NCBI GenBank assembly: GCA_009788065.1
Contig: WQSF01000002.1
Location: forward strand, 1 to 64,000
DNA: 64,000 nucleotides
Reading direction: 5' to 3'
Origin: Treponema sp.
GTDB taxonomy: Bacteria > Spirochaetota > Spirochaetia > Treponematales > Breznakiellaceae
Shown here one piece after another: positions 3,891 through 62,557 of this stretch. The notes beneath the pieces were generated by a model. That model was not told the origin of the DNA. It saw only the letters and a program-made list of their open reading frames with translations, and ran no database searches. Numbering within the stretch: the stretch's first letter is position 1; each line of letters starts with the position of its first letter. The translations under genes were made by a program, and so were the position numbers.

Positions 3891-4825
3891 CTTATATGGA
3901 AGAAAACAAACAAAGTCAAAGTACGCGCGTTCCTTTGCGTCTTCGTGTCTGCGCGAAATTTTTTCTTTTATTCATTTTCATGTTAGTAAATATTAATTTA
4001 AACGCGCAGGCATACAGGGCGTATTTGATACCGGGGCAGATTTATGTAGGAGACCCTGCGACATTGGTGCTGTCGCTGCCCGCTTCGCAGGTTTCAGAAG
4101 ATATTATTTTAACTAAAAGCAATTATTTTATAACCGAAGATAAATTTCCTTCGCATGAAAGCATCGATTTTAAACGCGTGATTTTAGAGAGGCGCTCTAC
4201 AGGAAGCAGGCTGATGATCGAATTCACTCCGTTTGCCGCAGGCGTTCTGGAAATGCCCGTTATCGAAATCGGAGGAGAATATTTTACCGGTTTGCGCGTT
4301 ACAGTAAATTCGCTCTTGGACGCTCGTTCCGCGCCGGCGCTGTCCACGGCGGCTTCCGTTCTGGCAATGCCGGGTACGGCGATAATGATTTACGGAACAA
4401 TGGCGGCGATTGTTTTTTTTATACTTTCCGTTATTTGGTTTATTTTTAAAGGTAAAACCGCGATTCAAAAATGGCGGGAAAAATGGAAAAGAAGAAGGCT
4501 CTTTGTTTCCATCCGCAACGCGGAAAGACGGCTTTACCGCGCAGTGCAAAAAGGCGCGGATAAACGCTCTGTTCTGGACAAACTCTCGGACGAATTCAGA
4601 GATTTTCTTTCCACACTTACGGGAGATAACTGCCGCTCCATGACCGCCCGCGAATTTGAACGCACATTTGAAGCTCTGGAAGACAGTTTGTTCCTTGGAA
4701 GTTTTTTTTCCAGATGCGACAGAATGCGTTTCTCCGGCGTCAATGTTGAATCTTCGGAGATCCTCCACCTTCTTGATGACATGCGCAGTTTCGTCAATGT
4801 CAAAAACAAGGAGGAAAAAAAATGA
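3887..4825 (+). CDS. Bat-operon membrane protein (BatD/DUF4381-like position), function unknown
   Basis: Signal-like segment, beta-rich ectodomain, TM at IMIYGTMAAIVFFILSVIWFIF; overlaps the DUF58 gene; start probably ATG 3896. Confidence 0.65.
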   Translation: MTYMEENKQSQSTRVPLRLRVCAKFFLLFIFMLVNINLNAQAYRAYLIPGQIYVGDPATLVLSLPASQVSEDIILTKSNYFITEDKFPSHESIDFKRVILERRSTGSRLMIEFTPFAAGVLEMPVIEIGGEYFTGLRVTVNSLLDARSAPALSTAASVLAMPGTAIMIYGTMAAIVFFILSVIWFIFKGKTAIQKWREKWKRRRLFVSIRNAERRLYRAVQKGADKRSVLDKLSDEFRDFLSTLTGDNCRSMTAREFERTFEALEDSLFLGSFFSRCDRMRFSGVNVESSEILHLLDDMRSFVNVKNKEEKK

Positions 4826-4830
4826 ACCAA

Positions 4831-4845
4831 AGGTGTCAGTCACCT
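4831..4845. repeat. Copy 1 of AGGTG-TCAGT-CACCT hairpin motif
   Basis: AGGTGTCAGTCACCT read directly; 5-bp stem, 5-nt loop. Confidence 0.8.
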
Positions 4846-4877
4846 CTTAATTTCTTACAAAACTGTCAAATATCAAA

Positions 4878-4900
4878 CAAAAGGTGTCAGTCACCTTTTG
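4878..4900. repeat. Copy 2 of the motif, extended to CAAAAGGTG-TCAGT-CACCTTTTG
   Basis: Perfect 9-bp stem, 5-nt loop; same GGTGTCAGTCACC core as 4831 and 13241. Confidence 0.85.
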
Positions 4901-4910
4901 GGGAGAAAAA

Positions 4911-5909
4911 ATGAACCTTGGTTTTGACAATCCCATCCTTGCCTTTTCCGCGTTTATAATTATTCCGTTAGCCGTCATTATTTTTTCACGGCTGAAAAAT
5001 CCGTTTGTCGCCGCGATTCCGCTCGGCGCTCCCGGCGGCGCTCATATAAAAATTTCCAATATCGGCGGCTTTGTAAAACTTCTGCGGTTTCTGGAAATCG
5101 CGGGAATATTTTTATTATTTTTCAGCGCGGCAGGTCCTTCGGTTAAAACCGCAGAAACTGTCTGGCTTAACAGAGGCGCCGATATAATTTTTATTTTGGA
5201 TACCAGCCCAAGCATGGCGGCAATCGACATGGACGGAAAAAACCGTTTTAACGCGGGAAGCTCCATGCTTATTGAATTTGCGCGCAAACGCCCGACAGAC
5301 AGCATCGGGCTTGTGGCGGTCGGCGAAGACGCGGCGCTGCTTCTCCCTCCGACTTCCGACAGAAACGCGCTTGAACTTCGGCTTGAACAGCTCCAAATAG
5401 GCGAACAAGGCGACGGCACCGCTCTTGGCATGGGAATCGCTGTCGCCGCGTACCACCTTGATAAATCCAACGCAAAAAGAAAAGTCGCCGTTTTAATCAC
5501 GGACGGCGAAAATAACGCTGGATCGATACACCCGGAAACAGCGGCGAGTCTGTTACTCGAAATGGGAATTTCTTTTTGGGTAATCGCTGTAGGATCAACA
5601 GGCGGAGTGCCGATTGATTACATCGATCCTTATACAAAAATCCGCAGAACCGGAATTTTTGATTCGCGTTACGACGCGGAAAGCCTCAGGCGTTTAAGCG
5701 CGGCGGGAGGCGGCGTTTTTATTTCCGCTCCGAATACAATAGCTTTTGCAGATGCTTTCGCGCAGATTGACGATTCCGAAATTACGATACAGAGATCGCG
5801 TATTGTTAACCGCATGACATCCTGTTCTTTTCAATTTTTACTGGCGGCGGTTATTCTGCTTACAGCGATAAAATTTACAAGAAGATATTTGCTGGGAGCG
5901 CTAACATGA
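4911..5909 (+). CDS. batA: BatA-like von Willebrand factor A domain protein
   Basis: MNLGFDNPILAFSAF..., MIDAS DTSPSM; GGGGAG SD before ATG 4911; the track start at GTG 4884 lies inside the hairpin repeat. Confidence 0.85.
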   Translation: MNLGFDNPILAFSAFIIIPLAVIIFSRLKNPFVAAIPLGAPGGAHIKISNIGGFVKLLRFLEIAGIFLLFFSAAGPSVKTAETVWLNRGADIIFILDTSPSMAAIDMDGKNRFNAGSSMLIEFARKRPTDSIGLVAVGEDAALLLPPTSDRNALELRLEQLQIGEQGDGTALGMGIAVAAYHLDKSNAKRKVAVLITDGENNAGSIHPETAASLLLEMGISFWVIAVGSTGGVPIDYIDPYTKIRRTGIFDSRYDAESLRRLSAAGGGVFISAPNTIAFADAFAQIDDSEITIQRSRIVNRMTSCSFQFLLAAVILLTAIKFTRRYLLGALT

Positions 5910-13228: not shown

Positions 13229-13254
13229 GGTGTCACCGAGGGTGTCAGTCACCC
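13229..13254. repeat. GGTGTCACC and GGGTGTCAGTCACCC motif pair
   Basis: Same core as 4831/4881; the left copy lacks AGTC. Confidence 0.65.
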
Positions 13255-62316: not shown

Positions 62317-62411
62317 TTTATTACTCCTTTGTTGAATCTCTGAATAAAGGGTAAATATACAGCGTTAGAAGCAGGTGAGGAAATTGTTAGAATTTGGTTA
62401 ATTTAAACATA

Positions 62412-62557
62412 GTTTTTGCCAACGAAATAACAGGTATTTTGATAGTTTTTGCCAACGAATAAACTACTATTATACCTGTTTTTGCCAATGAATATGTTTA
62501 TATTTTAATAGTTTTTGCCAACGAAAATATTGATAATTCTTGTTTTTTGCCAATGAA
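62412..62557 (+). repeat. Five direct repeats of GTTTTTGCCAAYGAA at ~33 bp pitch
   Basis: Copies 62412-62426, 62445-62459, 62478-62492, 62511-62525, 62542-62557 (extra T). Confidence 0.95.

Follow-up and report, generated by a model that had tools for sequence, protein, structure and literature searches.

A REP-like repeat doublet inserted at the batA start site of a Treponema genome, with a candidate coupling micro-ORF

The window analysed here, a stretch of 64,000 nt from the genome of a Treponema sp., contains the junction of two whole genes of the bat operon, namely batA and the gene immediately upstream, for which neither Pfam nor NCBIfam gave a match. At the junction lie two identical palindromes 51 bp apart, enclosed by two copies of a segment that holds a Shine-Dalgarno (SD) sequence and a start codon, together with a short frame that links the end of one gene to the start of the next (Table 1). 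The first-pass annotation of this DNA, made from the letters alone, had described two hairpins, the duplicated segment and a 30-codon frame, and its sequences and coordinates proved correct letter for letter. The coupled micro-ORF that it had proposed does exist as an arrangement, since the frame is open throughout and has an ATGA overlap at both ends; its predicted translation is MNQRCQSPLNFLQNCQISNKRCQSPFGEKK, and the SD sequence GGGGAG precedes batA.

Table 1. Features of the upstream gene-batA junction and the further palindrome copy in the window
Feature	Position	Strand	Basis or remark
Upstream bat-operon gene	3896..4825	+	TGA stop 4823-4825; adjoins batA in relatives too
Left copy of duplicated SD-ATGAACC segment, GAGGAAAAAAAATGAACC	4811..4828	+	Direct-repeat search
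Micro-ORF, 30 codons	4822..4914	+	ATGA overlaps with upstream stop (4822-4825) and batA start (4911-4914)
Inserted REP doublet, 71 bp	4829..4899	+	AAA-GGTGTCAGTCACC-38-nt spacer-GGTGTCAGTCACC-TTTT; not at relatives' junction
Palindrome 1, GGTGTCAGTCACC	4832..4844	+	Motif count, ssDNA fold
A-rich 38-nt spacer, part of 51-bp unit	4845..4882	+	Unit alignment/sequence model
Palindrome 2, GGTGTCAGTCACC	4883..4895	+	Motif count, ssDNA fold
Right copy of duplicated SD-ATGAACC segment, now batA's, GGGGAGAAAAAATGAACC	4900..4917	+	Direct-repeat search
batA (VWA-domain protein BatA)	4911..5909	+	ATG at 4911
Third palindrome copy, single, without 51-bp unit	13241..13253	+	Intergenic, between convergent genes

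Two direct repeats meet at the junction, one of 24 nt at a spacing of 51 and one of 16 nt at a spacing of 89. The latter is the duplicated SD/start region, also claimed in the annotation, whose copies match at 15 of 16 positions and perfectly only over the 12-nt run AAAAAATGAACC. The 16-mer is confined, with at most one mismatch, to these two sites on both strands of the window, where the next best match has three mismatches, and the flanking duplication is therefore not a product of chance. The window holds three exact copies of the palindrome, where the chance expectation, allowing up to two mismatches, is 0.31; folded as single-stranded DNA, the junction copy forms a hairpin of -6.4 kcal/mol (z -5.7), and the genome's own palindromes range from -3.9 to -6.4 kcal/mol (z -3.4 to -5.7). 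The two-copy junction array was missed by Tandem Repeats Finder, which elsewhere in the window reported a 33-bp tandem repeat of 3.8 copies (62409-62535). We also observe that the batA frame stays open upstream as far as a GTG within palindrome 2 (4884-4910), which would allow a longer BatA (MSVTFWGEK-MNLG...).

Relatives mostly have the two genes directly overlapping. Our comparison covered 78 named Treponema and spirochaete loci, mostly from MAGs labelled Treponema sp., which we take from their isolate names to come from termite-gut metagenomes. The distance from the upstream gene to batA is 5 nt or less in 73 of them, and in 60 the start minus the stop is -1, that is, an NTGA overlap with nothing between. 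Overlaps of this type also prevail in 29 further relatives, a set that partly coincides with the first. The junction of the nearest relative, whose BatA is 81% identical, reads gaggagaaagaaaaGTGAACCTGG and resembles both copies in the window. Because 60 of the 78 loci have both genes overlapping by NTGA, we consider a real insertion into an ATGA-overlap junction, as the annotation had proposed, to be well supported by the comparison.

The insert belongs to a dispersed repeat family. The window's own assembly (G000; 2.14 Mb, 98 contigs, 70% complete) contains 77 exact palindromes, versus none for a reversed-pattern control, and these group into 53 arrays, each holding one exact palindrome or more, a coordinate-based count of the stretches around the copies. 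The commonest palindrome spacing by far is 51 bp, and the arrays are mostly direct tandems of a unit made up of the 13-mer, GGTGWCAGTCACC, and an A-rich spacer of 38 nt whose positions are fixed. A sequence model of this unit has 76 matches in G000 (E up to 0.01) and a few weak ones in relatives, while exact direct 51-bp pairs number 29 in G000; no such tandem pair was found in 99 relatives, and a search of other species genomes in GTDB for the exact pair pattern gave no match either. No Rfam family matches the repeat, and our literature searches found no relevant paper on the palindrome letters and nothing on RAYT with Treponema or REP with termite-gut Treponema. By eye, the A-runs of the spacer (4859-4882; alignment columns 28-31, 38-42 and 48-51) are conserved about 10 bp apart and could curve the DNA. 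A different type of element begins with GGTGTCAGTCACC followed by a TAYGCTA-like sequence, with an inverted copy at its end (L034, L041, L046, L060, L061, and L132 of G002), and some of these carry TATAGCG-type inner palindromes.

Placed approximately by a simple codon-usage gene finder, 19 of the 53 arrays lie between divergent genes, 9 between convergent genes and 21 between co-directional genes (9 in sense, 12 in antisense), with 2 at contig ends and only 2 within genes, though coding sequence makes up about 78% of the total. The gap minus the element comes to about 0-20 bases at batA only, the next smallest array gap being about 50. Among all 53 arrays, the one at batA is thus alone in lying between closely packed genes that once overlapped, so ATGA sites are not the element's habitual target. 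A flank-to-flank search for direct repeats gave four strong cases: batA, two matches within the element's own spacer, and L023, where the flanking match is imperfect, further off and doubtful. The "target-site-like duplication" of the first-pass annotation consequently holds at batA and fails as a rule; the annotation had itself reckoned motif copies lacking flanking duplications as evidence against its reading, and nearly all other arrays are of that kind. Since the other arrays tested show no clear flanking duplication, with L023 as the one doubtful case, duplicating its target site is not a trait of the element, and what happened at batA is particular to that event.

Across the genus, the bare palindrome is present in 24 of 40 genomes, among them G001 (38 copies), G020 (18) and G002 (17); in G002 most form inverted pairs about 63 bp apart. 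RAYT-like Y1_Tnp genes occur in 18 of the 40 genomes. Two of their products, from G002 and G011, were scanned against the NCBIfam model NF047646 (REP-associated tyrosine transposase), and both score above its curated cut-off, which is set at 80 bits and which the G002 protein passes with 99.7. Counting the G002 RAYT and the nine closest to it, flanking repeats exceed the shuffled expectation in eight of the ten. The G002 gene has an 82-bp inverted copy on each side, ending in GGTGTCAGTCACC, and the G032 gene has GGTGACAGTCACC on both sides and in both orientations, so that exact palindromes or one-letter variants flank these two. The flanking repeats of the G010, G011, G012, G016, G021 and G035 genes are mainly direct, and palindrome variants (GGTGCCAGGCACC, CTACCAGGCACC, GGTGATTGACACC, GGTATCAATTACC) are recognisable at all of them but G021. 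Downstream of the RAYT gene at the G035 locus (L170) there is a run of at least ten consecutive GGTGATTGACACC palindromes. A promoter-like block (roughly TTTTCattttcgGgCAAGC...CGCGCCATATATATA) stands 5' of congener RAYT genes (L165, L166, L167, L172) and, in G000, 5' of various genes, often adjoining REP arrays (L010, L018, L032, L039, L049, L052).

The search for a REP-associated Y1 transposase that the annotation had suggested therefore succeeds in the congeners, whose palindromes flank RAYTs, and not in G000, where neither the Pfam model nor a congener's protein found a RAYT in the 98 contigs of the 70%-complete assembly. The element behaves as a REP and in most respects is one, in an untagged variant made mainly of direct repeats. 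Since the own assembly yields no RAYT, that one moved the element in the window's own species is our inference.

The two genic arrays of G000 lie in conserved enzymes identified by Pfam, and in both the 51-bp family is read in frame. One (L037, G000:C24:11903-11966) is inside Aat, the leucyl/phenylalanyl-tRNA protein transferase, and reads ...RSMVSSMVSVTYEESPKYKNNTQMVSVTTELL...; the other (L024, G000:C13:32156) is inside AroA, the EPSP synthase, and reads ...KHMVSVTHKENYKNIIKTQNGEN.... None of the 19 congeners aligned with each protein has a palindrome at the insertion position. In a congener, G035, aroA carries at a different site (L318) two copies of GGTGTCAGTCACC 36 bp apart, in frame and giving KGVSHLFE twice. 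Because 51 bp equal 17 codons, growth of an array keeps the frame.

The insertion, the duplication of the SD/start region, the palindrome's place in the family and the link to RAYTs in congeners are established here, and as a whole we regard the following account as probable. The palindrome family would have spread in the genus through a RAYT (TnpA-REP) acting on single-stranded hairpins. A non-autonomous doublet, whose 51-bp unit joins the 13-nt palindrome to the 38-nt spacer, entered the overlapping upstream gene-batA junction, which before insertion is expected to have held a single GGAGRAAAAAATGAACCTTGG. The same event also duplicated some 12-18 bp with the Shine-Dalgarno sequence, the ATG and the first codons, and because this segment is duplicated, the stop of the upstream gene is intact and batA still has an SD and a start. 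The duplication may stem from template switching, or from the filling of a staggered break in which REP DNA had been captured. A ribosome finishing the upstream gene could then reinitiate at 4822, traverse the hairpins and pass to batA at 4911, though we consider the probabilities for and against such translation and coupling to be about evenly balanced. Against this account, no RAYT was found in the own, 70%-complete assembly, the GT[AG]G tag is absent, and larger target duplications are not known from REP/IS200-type transposition (PMC2817692); nearly all other copies have no duplication. Subclasses without the 5' GT[AG]G tag have been described (PMC6006769).

The main alternative accepts the insertion and treats the micro-ORF as an accident, with batA read from the SD copy that precedes it and no role for the frame of 30 codons. 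The good SD before batA could allow translation without the micro-ORF and so counts against coupling, and the frame is known from one species only. Given the duplication, luck would preserve the frame about once in ten times (1/3 for the length multiplied by about 0.3, the rate in other units, for an open frame), and selection is thus not proved by the arrangement itself; the 51-bp units are open in 12, 12 and 8 of 29 copies in the three frames against a fraction of 0.26-0.31 expected from shuffled spacers, and these 29 copies, hardly above the shuffled spacers, give no sign of coding selection on the unit. What tells against an accident is that the ancestral ATGA overlap has been kept exactly at both ends, and a weak indication comes from the predicted RNA fold, in which the stretch before batA is paired and would be opened by a translating ribosome, as coupling would have it. 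We give the accidental micro-ORF an even chance. The opposite position, that a MIRU-like element targets overlapping stop and start codons and has a coupling ORF built into its design, draws on the anatomy at batA, where an insertion at a start codon, an internal ORF and a -4 overlap match what is described for MIRUs (PMC12548453). It is very improbable in view of the single array found in such a junction and the many found in divergent (19), convergent (9) or co-directional antisense (12) settings, and as a property of the family such targeting is refuted by the census of 53 arrays.

Two further explanations dispense with a RAYT. A DDE-type MITE with a long target-site duplication would account for the 12-18 bp duplicated at batA, and the inverted pairs of G002 palindromes resemble terminal inverted repeats, but nearly all other copies are without duplications, the G000 units are direct tandems and the congener palindromes cluster at RAYT genes, which leaves this explanation unlikely. 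Build-up in place, by a local duplication of the junction followed by slippage, is hardly credible: it fits the flanking duplication and the tandem units, yet the 71-bp insert matches a dispersed family both in sequence and in its 51-bp spacing, and array formation in place is contradicted by that family.

Among known systems, the closest likeness is to REPs and REPtrons with their RAYTs, which share a short, hairpin-forming palindrome in many, mostly extragenic copies; in this genus, too, palindromes flank RAYT genes and species-specific variants go in step with the RAYT. Work on RAYTs describes REPs that stand in inverted orientation and carry a GTAG tag, which some subclasses lack (PMC2817692, PMC6006769, PMC8266576), whereas here the GT[AG]G tag is absent, the left flank of the first palindromes being A-rich or ending in AAC, and G000 has direct tandem 51-bp units instead of inverted pairs or BIMEs. 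The RAYT flanks in this genus are mostly direct repeats as well, and the own assembly shows no RAYT. With REPINs and IS200/IS605 miniatures the element shares a hairpin pair plus spacer as the mobile unit, of which G002 has the inverted-pair form; the pair in G000 differs in being direct and tandemly repeated, its direct arrangement recalling the hairpin pair at the ends of IS200/IS605.

MIRUs of mycobacteria, the precedent for what is seen at batA, are described as entering at start codons and forming a -4 overlap that leaves expression little disturbed (PMC12548453). The likeness drawn here concerns arrangement: both have an intergenic unit capable of tandem growth at a start codon, an internal ORF and a 4-nt overlap. 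The differences are that a single array out of the 53 has such a placement and that 12-18 bp including the SD are duplicated. The batA site thereby provides a clean before/after pair for an insertion in an ATGA-coupled operon junction outside mycobacteria, and makes it testable whether short mobile repeats persist in coupled operons by providing a coupling ORF. Beyond the junction, a repeat family of spirochaetes is connected with RAYTs that are flanked mostly by direct repeats and lack a GTAG tag there, and conserved enzymes are seen to contain copies in frame.

In Rickettsia, palindromic repeats (RPEs) are inserted in frame in protein genes, as is the palindromic repeat in Aat and AroA of G000 and in AroA of G035. 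The present copies are mostly extragenic, genic ones being a minority, the unit differs in sequence and size, and frame-keeping follows here from the 51-bp unit; by eye, its ends also lack the CGTC tag described for the Rickettsia elements (PMC3733652). A rather speculative extension, which we hold to be less probable than its contrary, is that the 17-codon REP unit is tolerated wherever ribosomes pass, in frame within genes and as a coupling ORF at batA, where it might be an independent counterpart of MIRUs derived from a RAYT-mobilised palindrome. The element is not a new kind of system; it is a spirochaete variant, MIRU-like at one site and RPE-like in two genes.
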